Below, one piece after another: positions 11,164 through 52,100 of a stretch of 64,000 nt of DNA. This DNA comes from Dioscorea cayenensis subsp. rotundata (taxonomy: Eukaryota > Streptophyta > Magnoliopsida > Dioscoreales > Dioscoreaceae): assembly GCF_009730915.1 (NCBI RefSeq), contig NC_052474.1, positions 97,501-161,500 on the forward strand, given 5' to 3'. The position numbers and the translations under genes were made by a program. The first letter of the stretch is position 1; each line of letters starts with the position of its first letter. Under the pieces are notes generated by a model. The model was not told the DNA's origin, did no database searches, and saw only the letters and a program-made list of their open reading frames with translations.

Positions 11164-11634
11164 ATGCCCACAATGTCTTCTTTTCATCTTCTCCTCCTCA
11201 TCCTCCTTTCACTATTCATATCCATCCATTCATGCCATGGTCGTCTCCTGAGTGATGATCAAATCCAGCCAGCAAACAAGGTTTGAATACTATACAATAC
11301 TATAGTCTATACATACGTATACATACACATGCATGAACTACTCTTTCTCATATATATATCTTGAACTTGTCGTTTTGGTTGCTGTTATCCATTGAAGAGA
11401 GAGTGGAGAGGTGCAGCAACTACTGCACAAAGCCTCAAGGACGGCAAGACAAGGACTTCCACAAAGGTTGAGGATCATGCAGTGACGAAGGCAGTACTAG
11501 TATCAGGTGCAGTTCGAATTCAGTCCCATGTTTCAGTCTCATGGCGTGTCCCTCCGATGGAGAAACACAAGGGACATCCAGGTTTTAATGTAGACTATGC
11601 TGGACCAAAAACCCATCCACCATCTCACAACTGA
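11164..11634 (+). CDS. RGF/GOLVEN/CLEL peptide hormone precursor, form A (two exons)
   Basis: Exons 11164-11280 and 11398-11634, joined in phase 0, give 117 residues. Residues 1 to about 26 form a signal peptide (hydrophobic LLLLILLSLFISI core, then HSCHG). The middle is a variable, basic region. The last 13 residues, 105-117, are DYAGPKTHPPSHN directly before the stop. This matches the RGF/GLV signature: Asp-Tyr for tyrosine sulfation, Pro at position 5, Pro-Pro at 9-10, His-Asn end. Such secreted peptides maintain root meristems and gravitropic growth through RGI/RGFR receptor kinases. Form A arises when the internal donor at 11507 is not used. The same locus can encode form B (separate entry). 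Which Arabidopsis family member is closest cannot be told from this short peptide. Confidence 0.85.
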
Positions 11635-12587
11635 ACTGAAAGTATATTACGCTACCTACTCCATCATGATCACCTTCTTTATTTTTCTCTTTTGGATCTT
11701 CCTTTTTCTTTTTTTTTCTTTTTTTTACTGATCGTTATGATCGTACTAAACAATATTTTTCATAAAGCACTAGACTATATGTAATTCATGCTCTCAACTA
11801 ATTAGATATGCATTCACCTTATTAATTAATTAATCAAGCAAGAAGCTCATGCATATATATCAATTAATAGTCTCTTGGTTTTTGTGAAGTAACATCTTGA
11901 ATATTGTATATGATCAGAAGGAAATGGATTAATTAAGAAAAGATCCCAAGTTTTGCTCTTAAATATACTTTGCTGCTTGTTGATCAAATTGCAAAAGAGT
12001 TTCGTCCTGTATATGTTGCAAATATTTTTATTAATAGTAACGCAATGTGCAGGATCAATGGATTTTCTAGCTACCTCTCCTCATGCTGGCTATCCACAAA
12101 CAAGTCAATCAATGGTAAGAATATGTATATATACATAGATATATAATCATATATATTAGCACCATATATACATGCATATATATTATATATTTGAATCAGT
12201 ATATAATTAAGCCGGGAATGAAGAGTATGAGAGAACATGCTTAATTTGTGGCCCATATCATGTCCACAGTGAGGGGTGGCAAGGAAGTGAACATGTCATG
12301 CTCATTGCCCTCGATCTCTTTTATACAAGATTAATTAATGCATGAAATGAAATCTCAGAATTTTTTTGAGAGAGGAAAGGGAGTAACATGTCATGCTTTC
12401 TGCTAGCTGTTAATTTGCTCTTCTTAATTTTTTTATATATATATATATATATATATTGTAGGTCTTATCTGAGAAGCAGCAAGAACATAAGAGTTTAGAG
12501 GAACAAGAGGGTACCATCACCAATAACGAATCGTTGTCCATGGACTACCAGATGCCCCAACGTGGGCCATCCATCCATAACAAATAG
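11164..12587 (+). CDS. RGF/GOLVEN/CLEL precursor, alternative form B (four exons)
   Basis: Exons 11164-11280, 11398-11506, 12053-12114 and 12462-12587 give 137 residues. The donor CAG|GTGCAG inside exon 2 leaves phase 1. The exon at 12053 (acceptor TGTGCAG) is open only in the frame this phase requires, and exon 4 (acceptor TTGTAG) continues it to a stop. Residues 1-75 and the Gly76 codon outcome are shared with form A. The C-terminus (124-136) is DYQMPQRGPSIHN, preceded by SLSM and followed by one Lys. It keeps the RGF/GLV Asp-Tyr, Pro5, Pro9 and His-Asn positions but has Ser at position 10. The phase match and the second RGF-like ending argue for one gene with alternative splicing. A separate tandem gene is less likely because the downstream part has no signal peptide of its own. 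Form B could be the constitutive product. Confidence 0.72.
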
Positions 12588-13436
12588 ATGCGCACAATGA
12601 CAATGTTAATTACTCTAGTGTTCATGCATGGGTAGTGACTAACTGATCATGTGTTTGATTGATCAACTGCTTCTAAGTATATTGTGGACGTTGTAGATGT
12701 GCTAGATGGTTGATCATTAATTAATATTATTGGAGGCAGTTATTACTTATTTGTTTGCTAATTAGTTTTTTGGTATATTATTTGTATGTTTCTAATATGG
12801 AAAAAAAACACCTCATGGGTAATATTCATTAATGTAGGAATTTATTAATATTCCAAAAAAAAAAAATCTGGAAAGTATTTGAAACAAAAAAGAAACTTAC
12901 ATAAGTCCAACATTGGGAAAGGAGAAGAAGAAGTTCATGTTAGTTGACTAACTAGTATAGTACTGGAGTAATTAAACAACTAAACATCCTTCAGCGATTC
13001 AATTAATGCTACCTTGAAACTCATCAAAATCTAATAGATATAATTTTCAAATGAAACCCAATGGGTGCCGATCGACAGTACATCTCTTGTTTCTTTAAAA
13101 GGTTTGTTTGCATATTTATTTAGTCCAAGTTGGGATGATATTAACATTAATTAATATATCATGTATGCATGCATTTCGAAGATGTCCCTCTTTAACACAT
13201 TAAACAGCAAACAATTTGGTCTTCCAACAGGACTTCTTGTCAACACTTGCAACAAATAAACAAACGGGATGAGCTAGAATGGCAGAGTACCTTAAAAAAA
13301 TTATTCTTGCCTCAAGAAAGACAGACATCCATCTCTTCGATCAGTCCCATATATGCAACAAATTAAGTTGGACTCAGATTAATTGCATATATTTATAAAG
13401 CACTTAACAATTAATGGTATGCCAAGATCACACACA
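12588..13436. other. Intergenic between RGF/GLV and SKA1
   Basis: No gene is seen. The sequence is AT-rich, with ATTAATTA runs, and contains the RGF/GLV 3' flank. Nothing in it matches a tRNA or a structured RNA that I can recognise. Confidence 0.5.
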
Positions 13437-23952: not shown

Positions 23953-24065
23953 CCCTAATTAAACCACAATATATCCTCACCACCTTCATCATCAACAATA
24001 ATTAATTAGTTCATCTCCGACTCCACCACCAACATAATATCTAGCTTAATTAATTAACGTACGTA

Positions 24066-24479
24066 ATGGCATCCAAAGCATTAGTCATTGCAGTTCTTCT
24101 CCTATGTCTGAACCTCCTCTGCTTCTCCTTAGTCTCCTCAACCACTGGTTCTTGTTCGCCACCTTCACACAAGCCCACCCCAAAGCCCTCACCAAAGCCC
24201 TCTCCTTCTCCCTCTAGGCCAGTTAAATGCCCTCGCGACACAGCGAAGCTGGGCAGTTGCGCCAACTTGTTTGGCTTGATCAGCCAAAACCTAGGGACCC
24301 CGCCAAAGGAACCATGCTGCTCACTGCTCCGTGGTCTTGGTGACATGGAAGCTGCTGCTTGTCTCTGCACCACAATCAAGACAAATGTTCTTGGAATCAA
24401 GCTCACCTTCCCCGTTGATCTTTCCTTGCTCCTCAACTACTGTGACAAGAAGCTACCCACTGGCTTCCTTTGTCAATAA
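24066..24479 (+). CDS. Hybrid proline-rich protein with 8-cysteine (LTP-like) domain, 14 kDa DC2.15-type
   Basis: A single exon of 137 residues. Residues 1 to about 28 are a signal peptide (MASKALVIAVLLLCLNLLCF). A short Pro/Ser/Lys linker (about 30-53, with KPSPKPSPSPSRP) follows. The C-terminal 8CM domain has cysteines at 55, 65, 84, 85, 99, 101, 126 and 136, which gives the C-C-CC-CLC-C-C pattern of the protease-inhibitor/seed-storage/LTP family. HyPRPs are secreted cell-wall proteins linked to elongation and stress. The substrate, if any, is unknown. The start is the first in-frame ATG after a TATA box. A second HyPRP lies 1.3 kb downstream on the same strand. Family assignment is firm; a specific gene name is not. 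Confidence 0.93.
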   Translation: MASKALVIAVLLLCLNLLCFSLVSSTTGSCSPPSHKPTPKPSPKPSPSPSRPVKCPRDTAKLGSCANLFGLISQNLGTPPKEPCCSLLRGLGDMEAAACLCTTIKTNVLGIKLTFPVDLSLLLNYCDKKLPTGFLCQ

Positions 24480-25801
24480 TTCCAACTCTTTTTGTTGGTG
24501 GTTCTTTGCTTTCATTTGCCTTTGTGTATGCATGCATGCGTACATATACGCATACATCCTTATTTGCGTATGTGCCTCACGTATCTCTCATAGTGTTTGT
24601 TGAGCTAATTTGCTACTATATATGTATGTATGTATGTATGTACGCATGTATATGCATGCGTGTTTGGGAGTGTGTGTGTCTACGTACTCTTTCCGTTAGT
24701 ATTAGCTTTCAGTGGGAGGGGTTTACCAAAGTGTACTTTAAATTCCCATTCTGAGTAAATATTTAAATAAAGGCACAAGGAAGTACAAGTATGTGCTCTC
24801 TTGTCTAGTTGATCAACTTGACCAGCAGTATCCACGTAGATTAGTATTTTCGTCTTAAGTTCTTAACTATCATGTGGCACTCATGCATCTTTAAAAAGGT
24901 ACCTGTTCTAGCTAGCTACTGAACTCCTTCTTATTTCAAGTATATACTATAAATATAATTGGATGAAATTAATTAGTGCAGGTGATGTCTGCAGGTACTA
25001 ATTAACACATGAGAACAAGATCGAAATTGTAGACAAGAGTAGCTAACTAGTCTATATATGCGCTCATCTTGACTTGTAATGAGTAATAACATCTAAGATC
25101 CTCTACTTAATTAATTAGACAATTACAACCACAAACCATGCAGCCCCCAAAACCAGGAGCTTAAATTCCCGGGTCCCATGGTTTAACTTTCAACTTTCAA
25201 GCATATGTACCTTGCAGTCAACTTGACCAGATTTTTTTTTTGACACACATACCGACAGGCGACAGCTAGTCATATTATTTTTGTCACGTCCATTGTCCAT
25301 TCGCATCTGAGCAAGCACTAAGGCTGGATGAAACAGTACAAATAACACCAAATGGAAAAAAGGCTCACGTGTTCACTTTGAGGACTGAACGGAACCTGTC
25401 CCAGTTGTAAGTTTTAACTCATCTGCACGCATTTAGATATATATATATATATATATACCATCATCCTCATTCATTAACCAACTGGCTTTTATAGTCCGAT
25501 CGTGAGACCTTCTCTTAAACCCATGCACATGTTCTCTTGTGATGTTAATTTGTGCTCTCGCAGGCATATGATCTACTTAATTCTTTGGAGTTATAGCTGC
25601 AACTTGCAAACGGCATCAAACTAAAAAGAATGAGTACTATAGTAATATTAAATAACAAAGAACAAGCACATCAAATGATGGTTCACGGGTTGCCCATAAA
25701 ATTCCACTATATATATATGACTGCACTCTAGCTAGCTGATCTAGCTAGCGCTTGAGATTATATTCCTGCATATTAATTAATTGCTCATTAATTCTTCAAA
25801 G
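24480..25801. other. Intergenic between the two HyPRP genes
   Basis: No gene is seen. It holds the 3' flank of the first gene with iterated GTATGTATGTATG and GCATGC text (about 24525-24665), a (TA)n tract at 25437-25457, and TAGCTAGC clusters just before the second gene. A TATATATATA stretch at about 25708-25718 is the likely TATA region, about 85 bases before the next ATG. Confidence 0.5.
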
Positions 25802-26323
25802 ATGCAAATGGCCTCCAACAAAACCATGGCCATGTTGATCTCGTTGATGGTCCTCGTAACAACACCACTGGTCTCTGCATGCAACGACTGCAATCAGCAG
25901 GCCTCGTCACCCACCACATTCAGCAGCCCTCGTCATCACAGTACTACCAGCAGGAGACCACGAAGAGATCCACCACCTGTGGTAATCCCGCCTCCAGTGG
26001 TGGTTTATCCGCCGTACAATGGTGGGAGTGGGATCAACGCTCCACCCTCAACGCCATCTGATCAAAAGTGCTCCATTGATCTCTTGAAAATAGGATTGTG
26101 CATAGATGTGTTAGGGTTGGTGCATATTGGGTTGGGGAACCCGGTGGAGAACGTTTGCTGCCCGGTGCTTCAAGGTTTGCTGGAACTTGAGGCTGCTGCA
26201 TGCCTTTGCACTGCAATAAGGCTCAAGGTTCTTAACCTCAATATCTACATTCCTTTGGCTCTCCAGGTTCTCATTACTTGCGGCAAAGACCCACCCGCTG
26301 GTTATCTTTGCCCTACTCTCTAG
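25802..26323 (+). CDS. Hybrid proline-rich protein with 8-cysteine domain, second gene
   Basis: A single exon of 173 residues. Residues 1 to about 26 form a signal peptide (MAMLISLMVLVTTPLVSA core). Residues 27-88 are a hydrophilic linker rich in Ser, Arg and Pro (RRPRRDPPPVVIPPPVVVYP), with two extra cysteines at 27 and 30. The 8CM cysteines are at 90, 100, 119, 120, 134, 136, 160 and 170. A second ATG at 25808 would shorten the protein by two residues and sits closer to the usual MAS start; both are possible. The linker is longer and more basic than in the neighbouring HyPRP. The two proteins share the domain plan and the CLCTxIxxxVL block but differ elsewhere, so any duplication is old. 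Confidence 0.92.
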   Translation: MQMASNKTMAMLISLMVLVTTPLVSACNDCNQQASSPTTFSSPRHHSTTSRRPRRDPPPVVIPPPVVVYPPYNGGSGINAPPSTPSDQKCSIDLLKIGLCIDVLGLVHIGLGNPVENVCCPVLQGLLELEAAACLCTAIRLKVLNLNIYIPLALQVLITCGKDPPAGYLCPTL

Positions 26324-28561: not shown

Positions 28562-29440
28562 ATGTCAAGCTCTTTAGCAAAGGATGCTGATGTTCCCTAC
28601 TTCAACGGTGACAACTATAACCTTTGGGCTCTGATGATGAAGACCATGTACGTTTAGATCAAAGGATCTATGGAAATTAGTTGAGAAAGGATTCAGTGAA
28701 GAAGGAGATACAACTATAATCAATGAAAGTCTCAAGAAGGATGCCAAGGCCATGTACCTGATCCAGCGAGCCCTTTATCCTAGAATACTGGTACGGATAT
28801 CTGAAGAAAATAAAGGAGGCATGGGATATAATAAAAACTGAATTCCAAGGAGACTCAGACAATTCCAACATACAATTTCAATTTCATCCACTTCAAAGGG
28901 AGTTTGATGTTGTTAAAATGAAGCAAGGTGAGAGTGTCCAAGACTTTGTAAGCAGGGTCCTGGACATCGTATATCAAATCAGAGTATTGAAGCAAGATCT
29001 TCCTCAAAAGGCTATTGTCTCTAAAATTCTCATAAGCTTGACTCCCAGATTTTCACAAGCAGTTCATTAATCATTTGCTTAAACACACTCACTATAGAAT
29101 AGCTCAGTGGCTCACTAAAGAATCATGAGGCCATACTCAACATTGAAGGAAACCATCAAGAAGGAGAGAAAGCACTGAATGCTGGCAGAAGTGGTGTTCA
29201 ATTCAATGAACATCCACATCGAGGAGGAAAAGGCCGAGGTCACTATTTCCCTAGAAGCAGAGGTCGTGGGCTCGGGCGAGGAAGAAGCTCAGAGCTCGGT
29301 CGCCTAGAACATACTTAATCAGCAGAGCCTAGTAAACAATATAAAGGCGTTCAATGTTTTGTATGCAAGAAGTATGGGAATGTTAAAGCCCAATGTTGGT
29401 ATAGAAACAGAGAAGCTAATATAGTAAAAGAAGAGAAGGA
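28562..29440 (+). pseudogene. Broken copia gag
   Basis: It starts at the ATG at 28562 (MSSSLAKDADVPYFNGDNYN, the usual copia gag opening). The frame ends at 28655-28657. Gag (UBN2-like) coding then resumes in another frame, with text such as GDTTIINESLKKDAKAMYLI, and shifts again before QGESVQDFVSRVLDIVYQIR. The zinc knuckle near 29360 reads CFVCKKYGNVKAQC, with Asn in place of the usual zinc-binding His. Several stops and frameshifts exclude a functional product. Confidence 0.85.
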
Positions 29441-29465
29441 GAAGGAAGAAGAAGGAGTTGCGTTC

Positions 29466-30880
29466 ATGGCAATCTATGAAGAACCAAAGAAGAGAGGAGG
29501 TACCTGGCTCATTGATAGTGGTTGTTCAAACCACATGACAGGTGAGAAGAATCTATTTCAGCATATCGAAGACACTCCAAGCTGCTCTATCACAGTAAGA
29601 GACGGGAAAGCTCTGAAGGTTGAAGGAATAGGAAGTGTGAATCTCTACTCAAGCAAAGGGAAAATCACTACCTTGAATGATGTACGTACAGTTTGTCCCA
29701 ATTTTAGCTCACAATTTGCTGAGCGTTGGGCAAATGATGGATTCAGGATTTGATGTAGAATTCACCAAAAGAGTGTGTAACATCATGGAAACCGAATCCA
29801 AAGCAAGAGTTGCACAGGTATGTATGACAACTCACAAATTGTTTCCCTTAGAAGCAGATGATGTTGGAGCTGCGTATATGGCGCAAGATGGAGATGTTTC
29901 AGATCTATGGCACAGGAGATACGGTCATATAAATACAAAAAGCTTGAAACGACTATCAGATCAGCAATTAGTGTAGGGATTGCCCAATATCAAATATGTG
30001 CAACCATGCGAAGCATGCTCTTAAGGAAAGCAAGCTCAAGCTGAATTTCCTAAAGGATTGGCAAAGCGTGCGGTGGCTCCTCTGGAGCTAATTCACGATG
30101 ATCTCGTCGAACCAATCAGAACACCATCTATAGGAGGTAATTACTACTTCCTTCTACTGACTGATGACTATTCTAGACATAGTTGGGTGTACTTTATACA
30201 GAGAAAACAAGAAGCTTTCCAGCAATTCAAGCAATTTAAGCTGCTGGTGGAGAAGCAACTATCACTTCCTATGAAGATCTTATGCACAGACCATGGAGGA
30301 GAACTCACATCCAAAGAATTCGAGGCCTATTGTAATACTGTCGGAATCCTCCATCAATTGTCGGCTCCACAAATACTATAGCAAAATGGCGTTGCCGAGC
30401 GTAAGAACAAAATGGTCACTGAGATGGCGCGAACTCTATTAAAATAGATGAAGGTTCCACCGGAATACTGGGACGAAGCGATGGCCACAGCCGTCTACAT
30501 TCTCAATCGATCACCCACTTCAGCCATGAAGTTTCAAACTCCAGTGGAGGTGCTGACCGGAGAAAGACCAAGCGTAGACCATTTCAAGGTCTTCGGGTGT
30601 TTGGCTCATGTGCTCGTTGACTCGCAGCAAAGAGCAAAATTTGACTCCAAGACATGAGGAGGAGTCTTCATTGGCTACAACGATCGCTCAAGAGCCTATA
30701 AAATTATAGATCATGATTCTAAATGTGTACACGTCAGCAGGAATGTGCGCTTTTTCGAAGAGAAGCAATAGGATTGGCTGAGACATACTGACTCGGATGC
30801 ATAAAACTCTGAGCTAGCACATGAGAAGGAGGTGACTCAAACTATTGATTGTCCAACGCAATCTATACCATTCGATCAGA
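29466..30880 (+). pseudogene. Broken copia protease and integrase region
   Basis: The aspartic protease motif WLIDSGCSNHMTG is at about 29505-29545. A frameshift falls near 29690. The GAG-pre-integrase segment LWHRRYGHINTKSLKRL holds the His-His zinc ligands, and CEAC holds the Cys pair. The integrase core follows, with LIHDDLVEP, then CTDHGGEL, then QNGVAERKN, so the Asp, Asp and Glu positions are all present. Stops interrupt at about 29974, 30022, 30379, 30444 and 30655, so no integrase can be made. The conserved ending FGCLAHV...GGVFIGYNDRSRAYKI continues to about 30770. Confidence 0.88.
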
Positions 30881-39499: not shown

Positions 39500-42400
39500 A
39501 TGGCTAGCTTGGAAGATAATGAAGCAGCAAACGGGAAGATCCTTAGCGACGCCTGGGATTTCAAAGGCCGGCCCTCGGTCAGAACCCAGAGCGGTGGCTG
39601 GACCAGTGCCGCCATGATCTTAGGTCCTCAACTTCTATCTTTTCTTTTTCTACATTTTCAATTATGGCATGCATGTTTAATTCTCAAAAAAGAACGAGAT
39701 AATAATTACGATGCACAAAATGAAGGTGTGGAGCTGTGTGAGAGGTTGACAACACTGGGTATAGCGGTGAACTTGGTGACATATCTCACGGGTACGATGC
39801 ATCTCGGCAATGCAGCCTCCGCTAACGACGTCACCAACTTCCTAGGCACATCCTTCATGCTCTGCCTTCTTGGTGGATTCATTGGCGACACTTTCCTCGG
39901 TCGCTACCTCACCATCGCCATCTTTGCTGCAGTCCAAGCCACTGTAGGCTCCCTAGATCTATCATCATCATCATCATTCTTCTTCTTTTTCTTCTTCAGA
40001 TAAATATACATATAGTTCTTCTTTTTTTTCTTTTGAACTTGAGATTCATTATATATATATGTTGTTTATGCTCTCAGGGGGTAACCGTACTGACAATATC
40101 GACAGTGGCGCCTGGTCTGAGGCCGCCCAAGTGCGGAGACCCGGCGGGAGGAGGATGCGAGAGAGCCAACGGGAAACAGCTTGGGGTGCTCTACTTGGGG
40201 TTGTACCTGACAGCGCTTGGAACTGGGGGGCTCAAGTCCAGTGTGTCAGGGTTCGGGTCAGACCAGTTCGACGAGTCAGATCCGAAAGAAAAAAAGGCAA
40301 TGGCCAAGTTCTTCAGTTGGTTCTTCTTCTTCATTAGTTTGGGGTCTCTGCTGGCAGTGACTGTGCTTGTGTACATTCAAGACAACATCGGGAGGGTGTG
40401 GGGTTATGGGATATGCGCTGTTGCGATACTAGCGGGCCTGGTCGTCTTCTTGGCTGGCACATGGAGGTATAGGTTTAAGAAGCTGGTGGGGAGCCCATTG
40501 ACTCAGATAGCAGTGGTGCTGTGGGGTGCCTGGAGAAAAAGGGCCTTGGACCTGCCTTCTGATCCCTCCTTGCTCTATGATGATGTAGCAGCTCATCACG
40601 ATGGACTCACCAGCAACATCAAGCCCAAGCAGAAGCTGCCCCATACCAAGCATTTCCGGTACCTTAATTAATTAATTACCTTCTTTATTTTATTAATAAA
40701 ACTCACTCTCTCGTTTTTTATTTTTCTTCTCTCACCTACAATTATGATAAATAGACGGATTCCATATATATAGACACTGTTAATAATGATATATTTGACC
40801 ACTTTTAGTGGTAATAGATAGATATTTCGATTAGTAGTAGAGTAGTGAAAGACAGAACCAAAGGTCAGTACGCTGGTAGAGTCAAATTGATTGATCACGG
40901 GCGTTGATGTTTTACCATACAAATTATATATATATATATATATATAGACCACTTGCTATTGTCAGCATCACCCGTCCTCTCAGCGTCTCTTTCACTGTAA
41001 GGAGGAGAGACCCTCGAACACACAACCCGAATATGACCAAACTTGTAAGCCGAGCCATGCTCCATTATTTGTTTCTACTTTCTACAGCTAAGTGCTTTGG
41101 TAGGAATGGAGTACTGCATGATTCATCAAAATACATGCATCTTGTTTTCTGGCCAGCCAGACTTATTTATCCTGCAAGGAGTTTTTCAATTTAGCATGAA
41201 TGCATGCACCATGTGTGATCCTAGTTCCCTCGTCTCGATAAAGGGTATCAACAGACCTTAATTATATTACCCATCCTATGCACTGCACGTAGTCATTCAG
41301 ACAAGAGCATCTGATTTTAACATGTATGGGTCAGCCCAAAAACATAATATACTCGATCTCAAGTAAAGACATCGGTTAAACAAATAAATAAACCTGTTTC
41401 GTGGAATCGGGATGAACTTGTTATTGTCGACGAAGTAACTGGTGGAAGTCATATATATATATATATGCACGACCTGTTTCATTCAAAATATATATATAGA
41501 GAGAACCCATCATCTAGGGACGTCCCTAGATTTCAAATCTAGGGATGTCTATAGTAGTCATCGGATGAAAATCTGACGGCTTTTATCATTATGAACAGTA
41601 GAAACCGCGTTCTACAGTGTTGTACAGTGATCATGAACAATGAAAAGGTATACAGTGTTTATATAATCAATCAACCATCGGATGATGATCCAACGGCTTA
41701 AATTTAAAAACATCCCTAGATTTGAAATCTAGGGACGTCCCTAGATGATGTTTTCCTATATATATTAGCATTGCTTTGGTTGTCCAAGAACTGATCACCT
41801 GTAATTAATGGATGGTCCGTGCATACACACACACTCACATTATTGGTTATTGAACTAAAAAAATAAAATATAATAAAATATAATAATGGAATCGTGCTTC
41901 TAATATATCAGATTTCTGGGCGTACGTATATTTGCAGCTTTCTAGACCGAGCAGCGATCATCGTGGAGGAGCAAAGCAAATGGAAGGTATGCACATTGAC
42001 GGACGTGGAGGAAGTGAAGATGGTGGTGGGCTTGCTGCCAGTGTGGGCTACCACCATCGTCTTCTGGACGGTGTACGCACAGATGACCACCTTCTCGGTG
42101 TCACAAGCCAGCATCATGGACCGCCACATCGGTCACTCCTTCCAAATCCCCGCAGGATCCCTAACAGTCTTCTTCGTTGGCTCCATCCTACTCACAGTTC
42201 CCGTCTATGAGCGCCTCATCGTCCCTGTCGCTCGGCGGCTCACCGGCCACCCTCAAGGTCTCTCACCCCTCCAGCGCATCGGAGTGGGGCTCACGCTCTC
42301 CATCCTGGCCATGGGGGCGGCCGCATTCACAGAGCAGAAGCGGCTGAGATCAGCGTGGTCAAACCCGGAGACAATCCAAAAGGGGGCAGCCGTGCCACTG

Positions 42401-42817
42401 AGCGTGTTCTGGCTTGTGCCGCAGTTCTTGTTGGTGGGGTCCGGGGAGGCGTTCACGTATATTGGGCAGCTGGACTTCTTTCTAAGGGAGTGCCCCAAAG
42501 GGATGAAGACCATGAGCACAGGTTTGTTCCTCAGCACGCTGTCCCTCGGCTTCTTCGTCAGCTCTGTGCTGGTGACCATCGTCCATAAGGTCACGGGGGA
42601 GAGTGGGCATGGTGCGTGGTTGCCCGACGACTTGAACCGTGGCAGGCTCTATGATTTCTATTGGTTGCTGGCCATGATCAGTGTCGTTAACCTCGGGGTC
42701 TTCTTGGTCTGTGCCAAGTGGTATGTCTACAAAGATTGTAGGGCCGGCACAGCCGTAGGGGATGACAGCATCAACGGATCCGTGGAGCTAGCCGAGGCCG
42801 AGGCCTGTTACCATTAA
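39500..42817 (+). CDS. NRT1/PTR family (NPF6) anion transporter, NRT1.1-like, with Tyr at the nitrate-binding His position
   Basis: Exons 39500-39623, 39726-39943, 40078-40658 and 41938-42817 give 600 residues, the usual NPF size, with about twelve hydrophobic segments. The proton-coupling ExxER motif is E44-L-C-E47-R48. Thr104 in LGRYLTIAIF aligns with Thr101 of Arabidopsis NRT1.1, the CIPK23 phosphorylation site of the dual-affinity switch. In FWTVYAQMTTFSV, Tyr354 replaces the nitrate-binding His356. In maize NPF6 proteins the same His/Tyr position separates nitrate-preferring (His) from chloride-preferring (Tyr) transporters, so a chloride-leaning NPF6.4-type protein is inferred. It acts at the plasma membrane by family analogy. 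Intron 1 is 102 bases, stop-free and divisible by three. Intron 3 holds a MITE. Confidence 0.93.
41495..41762. mobile_element. MITE, palindromic-TIR family A, copy 2, in NPF6 intron 3
   Basis: The terminal inverted repeats are well preserved: CATCATCTAGGGACGTCCCT at the left (from 41508) and its exact inverse at the right (to 41750). Each contains the perfect palindrome CTAGGGACGTCCCTAG, and TTTCAAATCTAGGGA extends the match inward. Flanks are TATATA. The interior CATCGGATGATGATCCAACGG is shared with copy 1. It lies inside the intron between the third and fourth exons of the transporter gene. Confidence 0.82.
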
Positions 42818-49190: not shown

Positions 49191-52100
49191 TTATGAACAG
49201 GAAGTAACATTATTATCCACTAAAGTTTCACTGAATATATGGGGGCAACCATCCCAGTTCATCTTCTCTCTCGCTTCCCAGTATCCACCTACATATCTAT
49301 ACGTCCCCGTCTCACTATCCATTTGAAACCACCTTGGCTTCCATCCATCCTGCTGCAATTTCCTAGACTGTACCAAAAGCAAAATGCAAACACACACGCA
49401 CACAAGCACTCTGTTAAATGACAATCCATTATAAAAAAATTTACACCAATGAAGCTTCATGCCACAGTGCTACACTGCTACTAATATTTGAATAATTGGA
49501 ACAATTCAAGCATAATAGTCTCTTTCATTATTCCAACATGGTTTTATCTACCCATTTCCTTCAACAACAACAACAACAACAACAACAACAGCAACAACAA
49601 CAACAACAATAATAATAATAACAACAAGCTCTTTTAAAAGTATTAAGAACATTCAGCATGTCAACAAATTAAAATTCTGGCTACTGAGACCAATCAGGTT
49701 TCACCAGAATAGCAGCAGTGTAGCAAGTTTATTTAAGAACATCTAGCACAAAAACCTAGCATTTATAACACGCAAAGCCTAGACATGCAAATATCTTTGT
49801 AATTTTGGGACTTTCAACCTAGGATACATTGGCTGCTGTTTGATTTAATTACTTCTGGGCATTCATGGAAGTTCAAAAAAGACATCGAGCAATATTCATA
49901 ACAAAAGTGAAGAGCCATTTAAAGATTTGAAAAGAGAACTCCCTGTTTAAACACAGACAATCAGAAAATATAGCAGACTGAAAGATAAAAATGTATTTGT
50001 CTTAGAGGCATACCATCCGCTGGCGTCTCTCCAACCGCTGCTTTTCTGCATTTGCCTTCTCGTACTCCCCATTTTCCAGATGCCGCTGGTCTGGCCTAAG
50101 TCTCGAATCCGTAGGGGGAAGCTTCTCCTTAATCCGGATCAAATATTCGGGATCAGAACTAGACAGAAGATAAAGAAGAATAAGAGTAAAAAAGAAATAG
50201 AAGCTCGTAAGCAGAAAGTATGCCATCTCTACCTGCAACTCTGGTGTCAACTCATTCAGTGTAATTGCAAATGATGATAAGTTGTACCGAGTAGGATTAT
50301 CAGGAGGTTTACTCCTCCTCCATAGCAAGGAGGTATTTTCAGGTGATCTGCTGTCATTCGTTCTAAACATAGCATCTCCTTCAGTGTAATACATGCTGTC
50401 ATCCCATTTTCCTCTCAAGGCAGCAACTTTAGCTCCCTCACAATCTTCAACAAAGCCTTGCACCTGCATGACACAGTCAGAACTCTAACCAAGAACACTT
50501 CATCGTTTGTTCCAAAAGAAAATGATTTCCTGACCTGACGTGGATTACGGTCAAGTAGAGACTGCTCTTTGAACTTCAGTTTGCATGAATACTGGCTATT
50601 ACCCCTTATGTTCATAGTCCCATGGTGATCACAGTATACTTTACCAAGGATGAGATTATAAATAGTTGTTGTGACCTGAGATGGGTCAGGAAACTGGTAC
50701 CGCTGAATGAAAACAATAAGAGAATATAGCTCTGGATAAGACCAGGGCAACTGAGACACTAACATGGTGAGCTGACTAAAACATACCTTATTCCATTGAA
50801 ATACTTCACCATCATCAAATTCCAGGGTCAAAGTGCCAACAGGGTCTAACTGAATAGATCTTCCCCAAAACTTACTCCTAAGGTTGCTGTCACCCCAGAA
50901 CTTCCATCCTTTACCCTCACAGTGGCATGCAATGAGCATTGGGTGGTGGCTGACCTATTACTCATGGAAAAGAAGAAACTCAAGATCCAAATACGAGCCT
51001 CTTGTGCATGTGAATTGTACATAGAAAAATTTTAATGTACAAACATGGAGAGAAGTAATAAGTTGATTGCATATGACTGCGCTTAAATTAAATAAAATAT
51101 AAAACAAAGCAGAATAGATGCAATCATATGCAAAGAATCAAAGTTAGAAGTTTGCAAACACTGACCTTCTCAGAGAAGAAGCGAATTCCTTTTTCAGGGT
51201 AATCAGCTTCATAAGTCTCACCCAACAAAGGGTTGAATGGTTTGCAGAGCCGCCCATCACAGGAAGCATACCCAGAGACTGCAAAGGCAGCTACATTCAG
51301 AATTCTCATGAGACTGTTTCCCTAGATACAACATATAATTTCGTGTAAGAACAATGCAAAGGCAAGTGCATGTCAAATTTCTCACAGTTATCTTCACTTG
51401 AACAATCTATAATAGATGGCAGGCAGGCTTGCCAGCAGGACGAGTTTACATGAAATAGAAAATCCTTTCTCACCAGATGAAATTAGCACTGTTATAACTT
51501 AATTAGGAGAAGTACGGATTCAATGAAATTTTTCCTAGTATGCAGTTACACCAGATGAAATTAGTATCGACCCAAACATTATATCATTTATGTATGTTCC
51601 AAGTGTTCTAAAATAAAGATGGAAGCATATATTTATATTATCCTGATAAAAAGGTTACTGATGAAGAAAGAACTCTCTGAACTTTAAGGAAATGAGGATA
51701 ACTCAATTGTTGTCAAAGTTCTGCAAAAATAGTTCTGTTCATTATGAGCACTATTTTGCGTCAGAATTAAGAAACAATGTGTTGAGAGTCTACCATTTTC
51801 CCATATTCATAAGCTCTATCCAAGAGATATGAATATTCCATCTCCTCACAGCACTTCTGAAGGGATGAAAGTGGTTCATTGAAGTAAACAGGAAGGCACA
51901 CACGAGTAAGATCCTTTCCAACATTATCTTTGATCACTGACCAAAGGCTAACATATTTCTCTTTTTCAGTAGGCTCCGGTAACCTCTTACGCCTTTGGAT
52001 GTGTGGATATGTGACATGATCACTTTGTACTGTTCCAGTATGCATGTTTGCAGCATCAGCAGAGTGATCGTGATTCTCACATGCCCATCCCTTACTATTA

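Follow-up and report, generated by a model that had tools for sequence, protein, structure and literature searches.

The window considered here is the whole stretch of 64,000 nucleotides that was analyzed, from Dioscorea cayenensis subsp. rotundata (contig NC_052474.1, positions 97,501 to 161,500). Between its positions 11164 and 12587, on the forward strand, lies what is quite probably one precursor gene of the RGF/GLV/CLEL (root meristem growth factor) family, with a composite terminal exon and two alternative endings. A preliminary description made from the letters of the sequence had proposed this gene, and its coordinates, donor, acceptors, phases and both peptides were all reproduced from the window sequence. 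The features of the locus are as follows, with a slash marking the exon border in splice sites.

11164–11280, forward strand: exon 1, with the start codon and a hydrophobic, signal-like N-terminus (MPTMSSFHLLLLILLSLFISIHSCHG...); it ends in phase 0.
11398–11506, forward strand: part of exon 2 common to both isoforms, pro-region; predicted acceptor, phase 1 end at the internal donor.
11507–11512, forward strand: internal donor, CAG/GTGCAG, weak by a rough scoring matrix.
11507–11634, forward strand: read-through ending (H tail), with stop codon TGA at 11632–11634.
11593–11631, forward strand: predicted peptide 1, DYAGPKTHPPSHN, group H with His8, located by motif scan.
11635–12052, forward strand: remainder of the optional intron, which in the read-through isoform would serve as 3′ untranslated region and contain a poly(A) site.
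12053–12114, forward strand: predicted middle exon of 62 nt, phase 1 to phase 0, with acceptor TGTGCAG and donor ATG/GTAAGA.
12462–12587, forward strand: predicted last exon, starting in phase 0, with stop codon TAG at 12585–12587 and a match to Pfam PF21529 (GLV1-2) below the cut-off.
12543–12581, forward strand: predicted peptide 2, DYQMPQRGPSIHN, R-like (Arg7, Gly8), located by motif scan and Pfam.

Two products are predicted from these exons. The read-through form (11164–11280 plus 11398–11634, forward strand) encodes 117 amino acids, with DYAGPKTHPPSHN directly followed by TGA. The spliced form (11164–11280, 11398–11506, 12053–12114 and 12462–12587, forward strand) encodes 137 amino acids and ends in DYQMPQRGPSIHNK, its C-terminus being DYQMPQRGPSIHN plus one Lys before TAG. 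The N-terminus common to both is strongly hydrophobic on the Kyte-Doolittle scale, a statement of hydropathy alone, and the best 9-residue value of exon 1 is 3.37. At the DNA level, exon 1 is 73% identical over 75 nt to exon 1 of a paralog in the same genome, designated C16. The intron stretch 11638–12052 contains 71% A+T and 41% T, with four matches to a list of AATAAA-like hexamers, and is uninformative on the poly(A) site.

The membership of both endings in the RGF/GLV family, as put forward in the preliminary description, is borne out by their sequences: each 13-residue peptide begins with Asp-Tyr, contains the Pro residues and ends in His-Asn, as is proper to the C-terminal peptides of this family. 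Scanning all six frames of the window for the motif DY..P...P..HN gave two matches, both at this locus, to be compared with one match in total in 150 windows simulated by a first-order Markov model (0.007 per window). Concerning peptide type, groups H and R have been defined by His8 and by Arg or Lys at positions 7 and 8, respectively (Furumizu & Sawa 2021, PMC8329595). His8 is present in DYAGPKTHPPSHN and likewise in the first endings of C16 and of three further paralogs, designated C3, C5 and C8. The second peptide of the window is termed only R-like, because its Arg7-Gly8 departs from the R/K rule. Pfam PF21529 matches residues 95–136 of the spliced form (E 1.1e-5, 26.7 bits). The read-through products of the window, C16, C3 and C8 and the spliced products of C3, C5 and C8 gave no RGF family match in Pfam, just a few chance matches under the cut-offs, the read-through form of the window having none at all, and the PDB search with the spliced product of the window gave zero matches. 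Literature searches for the peptide sequences of the window themselves returned nothing in any RGF paper.

Queries for the search of the 584 Mb assembly were individual proteins plus one Pfam family; the window corresponds to G000:C4:97501-161500. At least eight distinct RGF loci were found: the window gene on C4, C16 at 21.26 Mb, C3 at 3.27 Mb, a locus C3b at 3.39 Mb, C5, C8, a further C3 locus at 15.6 Mb, and C2077. A near-identical inverted C3 copy at 3.33 Mb was counted together with the 3.27 Mb copy as one locus, and L057 (E 0.85, internal stops), L048, L037–L039 and L029 were left out of the count. The PF21529 search gave ten matches in the genome, three of them at RGF loci; scanning the loci of the other seven (E 0.9 or more) revealed no RGF motif. 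Among 14 control genomes, PF21529 matched in one, under the cut-off.

Two endings were readable at four of the eight loci, namely the window, C3, C5 and C8. All four display a phase-1 donor within the terminal coding exon, a middle exon running from phase 1 to phase 0 (62, 62, 53 and 62 nt, respectively) and a last exon starting in phase 0, and a second RGF-like peptide lies 580 to 1234 bp beyond the first stop. With the exons predicted, the frames of both isoforms are open from ATG to stop at the four loci. The donor CAG/GTGCA, in the same phase, is common to the window, C3 and C8, while the predicted donor of C5 is CTG/GTATC. The first and second endings are DYHAPKTHPPKNN and DYHPKGRRKPPVNN (R7 R8) in C3, DYHFPKSHPPKNN and DYHERAHHHPPINN (His in the 7/8 region) in C5, and DYHAPKTHPPKNN and DYQSKAHRRPPINN (R8 R9) in C8. 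This recurrence supports the proposal of the preliminary description that one precursor gene carries two RGF/GLV endings, as does the constraint on the paralogs considered below. From the layout, we infer that the window gene and C3, C5 and C8 descend from one two-ending ancestor.

Two of these paralogs present peculiarities of their own. The second peptide of C5, DYHERAHHHPPINN (L041 2960–2919, minus strand), is odd in having a His-rich center and a C-terminal extension, and stands between the H and R types. The C3 gene occurs twice, in inverted orientation and about 56 kb apart (L021, G000:C3:3270500-3276500; L023, 3326500-3333500). The two copies share 2200 identical positions in 2273 columns over the gene, and over 6129 columns they differ by 60 mismatches and 144 gap openings, i.e. 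mostly by small indels. Either the gene was recently duplicated in inverted orientation, or the assembly contains the region twice, with indel noise. The C3 model was read from copy L023 as it stands, copy L021 not being open with the exons tried.

The preliminary description had also judged it improbable that the donor phase would by chance keep the downstream exons open. This was overstated. When the AG/GT donors of the stretch were combined with its [CT]AG acceptors, the last two exon ends being fixed, 12 of 28 site pairs kept the frame into DYQMP, so the phase argument is weak on its own. The case for the gene rests instead on the layout recurring in paralogs. A second AG/GT donor, at 11582 (CCAG/GTTTTA, also phase 1, score 1.99), was considered and provisionally set aside in favor of 11507 (score 2.01), because C3 and C8 have CAG/GTGCA well upstream of the H peptide.

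The DNA comparison of C3 with C8 yielded three collinear islands. The first, of 186 nt and 82% identity, runs from the last part of the shared exon through the H tail and ends in the H stop codon; the second comprises the middle exon together with its splice sites (69 nt, 80%), and the third the terminal part of the R exon (75 nt, 77%). Further matches were a TTC repeat between non-corresponding places and one 36-nt match upstream. The islands give independent support to the predicted exon borders. They bear also on the idea of two tandem genes, the second having its own promoter inside the intron and an ATG at 12013 (MLQIFLLIVTQCAG...), in frame with the exon at 12053, to open a signal peptide. 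The frame 12013–12052 (MLQIFLLIVTQCAG) is indeed short, signal-peptide-like and in phase into the middle exon, with a best 9-residue hydropathy of 2.87, compared to 3.37 for exon 1. However, its hydrophobic run sits in the U-rich stretch preceding the acceptor, where such codons are to be expected, and the acceptor itself is included in the conserved C3/C8 island. Moreover, it has no counterpart in C3, C5 or C8: the frame open before the middle exon measures only 4, 19 and 8 residues there, respectively, and a Met is absent from those of C3 and C5, that of C8 having a single one immediately ahead of the exon. Tandem genes seem, on balance, quite unlikely.

Selection was evaluated through the rates of nonsynonymous (dN) and synonymous (dS) substitution in 26 pairwise comparisons (10 of the H tail, 6 of the middle exon and 10 of the R exon), with Fisher tests run on seven closer pairs. 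These pairs are not independent of each other, and the R alignments are uncertain in their flanks. Concerning the H tail, dN and dS were 0.22 and 1.41 for window/C16 (37 codons, p 3.4e-5), 0.16 and 0.41 for C3/C8 (p 0.017), and 0.32 and 1.20 for C5/C8 (p 6.6e-4). In 25 hand-aligned codons of window/C16, the proportions of synonymous and nonsynonymous differences (pS and pN) were 0.50 and 0.035. Concerning the R exon, dN and dS were 0.47 and 1.81 for C3/C8 (p 3.9e-4), and 0.28 and 1.19 for C3/C3b (p 6.6e-4). In the closer paralog pairs, dN below dS thus indicates coding constraint on both kinds of ending. Outside the set submitted to Fisher tests, six H-tail pairs gave dS of 1.48 or more, four of them saturated, and the three R-exon pairs with C5 gave dN 0.56 to 0.77 and dS 1.12 to 1.58. 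In the six middle-exon pairs the constraint was not clear (dN 0.25 and dS 0.32 for C3/C8), and the middle exon of the window displayed no clear sequence similarity to its counterparts in C3, C5 and C8.

Several observations weigh against a two-ending gene in the window. All the exon borders are sequence predictions, chosen to keep the frames open. The internal donor is weak, scoring 2.01 with the rough matrix; some other predicted donors in the family are as low by the same matrix (1.21 to 1.97 in C3). The R peptide of the window is atypical at positions 8 (Gly) and 10 (Ser), and the GLV1-2 score of the spliced form lies below the curated cut-off of 28.1 (26.7, and 24.2 in the genome family search). 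In Pfam, the spliced products or second endings of C3, C5 and C8 gave no GLV1-2 match, and that of C3b matched only at E 3. The dS of the window R exon was saturated in four of four comparisons, so that selection on that exon is not measurable. By DNA the window matches C16, but at E 1e-3 none of C3, C5 and C8; its kinship with these three is therefore argued from the layout, the phases, the length of the exon and the H tail, in which 33 to 41% of residues are identical to those of C3, C5 and C8. Finally, the C5 donor was chosen among nine phase-1 GTs, which makes C5 the least certain of the gene models.

Part of these observations could be accounted for if the read-through hormone alone were made and the downstream exons were a decaying remnant in the window gene. 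The atypical Gly8 and Ser10, the weak internal donor and the failure to find the R motif in C16 would all fit such decay. On the other side, the frame has stayed open over 62 plus 126 nt with fitting phases, the similarity to GLV1-2 persists over 42 residues, and the R exons of C3, C8 and C3b show dN below dS. A decaying remnant is considered unlikely.

Two paralogs carry a single ending. C16 has the H ending, with no AG/GT in its terminal coding exon; the motif scan of 11 kb, comprising 7 kb around the locus and the next 4 kb, detected no second motif, and a search of L019 and L025 for remains of the R exon gave nothing convincing. The window (13169–13227) and C16 (L019 3580–3639) share a downstream 60-nt island of 77% identity, which follows the H stop at a distance of about 1.5 kb in the window and of 0.6 kb in C16. 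It is possibly a conserved non-coding element. These distances fit a loss of the R part in C16, the alternative being a gain in the window. C3b, on the other hand, retains CAG/GTGCA, and its R exon joins in frame without a middle exon, none having been identified there; its read-through stops after Gly-Ala-Asn, without an H peptide.

The opposite reduction of the window gene can also be conceived, with the spliced hormone alone being made and the read-through form representing unproductive intron retention. In plants, introns are frequently retained, in many cases unproductively. Against this, a family peptide plus stop codon forms the exact end of the H tail, and this tail is conserved with C16, whose predicted gene has this ending alone. 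Production of the spliced hormone alone is very improbable.

It seems reasonable to interpret the locus as a single two-ending gene working as follows. A transcript that bypasses the donor at 11507 and terminates within the intron after it would attach the group H peptide DYAGPKTHPPSHN to the signal peptide and pro-region that both forms share. When the donor is used, two further exons would substitute the R-like ending DYQMPQRGPSIHN. The weak donor would compete with the ending of the transcript in the intron. Each precursor would then undergo removal of the signal peptide, subtilase cleavage at Asp-Tyr, Tyr sulfation and Pro hydroxylation, before binding to an RGI receptor. The maturation would resemble that of CLEL6 and CLEL9, for which SBT6.1 is reported to pre-process CLEL6 and subtilases such as SBT3.8 to cleave in an Asp-dependent manner (PMC7162652). 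We infer the single transcription unit, the splice junctions with their use and the choice between them, the choice of poly(A) site, the processing and the receptor activity.

The preliminary description knew of no described RGF gene with such an arrangement. In the literature searched, none was recognized outside gymnosperms either, but gymnosperms offer a spruce precedent and the H/R pairs. Two-ending CLEL genes have been predicted in spruce and were considered not known in other plants (Strabala et al. 2014, PMC4016512). Like the window gene, the spruce genes CLEL14/CLEL22, CLEL18/23/24, CLEL15/CLEL25 and CLEL20/CLEL26 have alternative downstream exons with a separate CLEL peptide (PMC4016512). 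The same arrangement is found in the window at the sequence level: a donor in the terminal coding exon leads to alternative terminal exons with a distinct CLEL peptide. The spruce genes belong to a conifer and have partial support from expressed sequence tags (PMC4016512); the exons of the window gene are predicted. In gymnosperm H/R pairs, as in the window, one H-type and one R-type peptide go with precursors otherwise strikingly similar; such pairs were reported only in gymnosperms, independent origins were suspected as possible, and their frequency elsewhere was posed as a question (PMC8329595). Differently from those pairs, layout and phases are common to four loci within a single genome here, and the second peptides of the window and C5 depart from the rule of R/K in positions 7 and 8.

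Other comparisons are less close. One is with RGF6/GLV1/CLEL6-type precursors and PF21529; the C-terminal region of the window spliced form matches this model below the cut-off, while the C3 15.6 Mb and C2077 loci exceed the cut-off and, unlike the window with its two endings, displayed only an R-type peptide in motif scans of 6.5 and 6 kb, respectively. AtCLE18 resembles the window in being one gene with two peptide motifs (CLE and RGF), but both are in one protein (PMC8708909). In the same survey, each of 203 RGFs from 24 species carried a single RGF domain (Fang et al. 2021, PMC8708909). One Arabidopsis GLV splice variant has been counted (Ghorbani 2015, PMC4526923), and the available part of a peach RGF paper (PMC5641559) holds nothing on two-ending genes. 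In the portions available of the open-licence literature, whose search results were partly swamped by unrelated papers, no angiosperm two-ending RGF case was recognized. So far as found, then, the two-ending design is known from conifers and has not been described outside gymnosperms in the literature searched.

Elsewhere in the window, two adjoining small proteins with a hydrophobic seed protein/lipid-transfer domain are encoded at 24054–24476 and 25781–26320. Retrotransposon-like reading frames occupy 28762–30378, with an integrase core domain at 30025–30378. Exons of a POT/PTR family transporter lie at 39826–42814 on the forward strand, and exons of an oxysterol-binding protein at 50418–50954 on the reverse strand.

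Since the four loci share the phases of the donor and of the middle exon, the results suggest that H/R pairs exist outside gymnosperms and that the layout was inherited within this genome. This bears on the questions of how frequent the pairs are outside gymnosperms and whether they had independent origins (PMC8329595). A tentative extension, which we hold as a possibility more doubtful than not, is that the arrangement with two endings is ancient in seed plants and held in common with conifers, that R-type hormones first arose from a last exon used alternatively by an H-type gene, and that the single-hormone genes of angiosperms arose by loss of one ending. If so, C16 (H only) and C3b (R only) would illustrate such loss, and regulated splicing or poly(A) site choice would set the ratio of two ligands made from one promoter. 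Where a survey retains a single protein model for each locus, half of the hormones of this kind may go unnoticed. The window gene would be tractable as an example of a plant hormone gene whose ligand could be selected by RNA processing.
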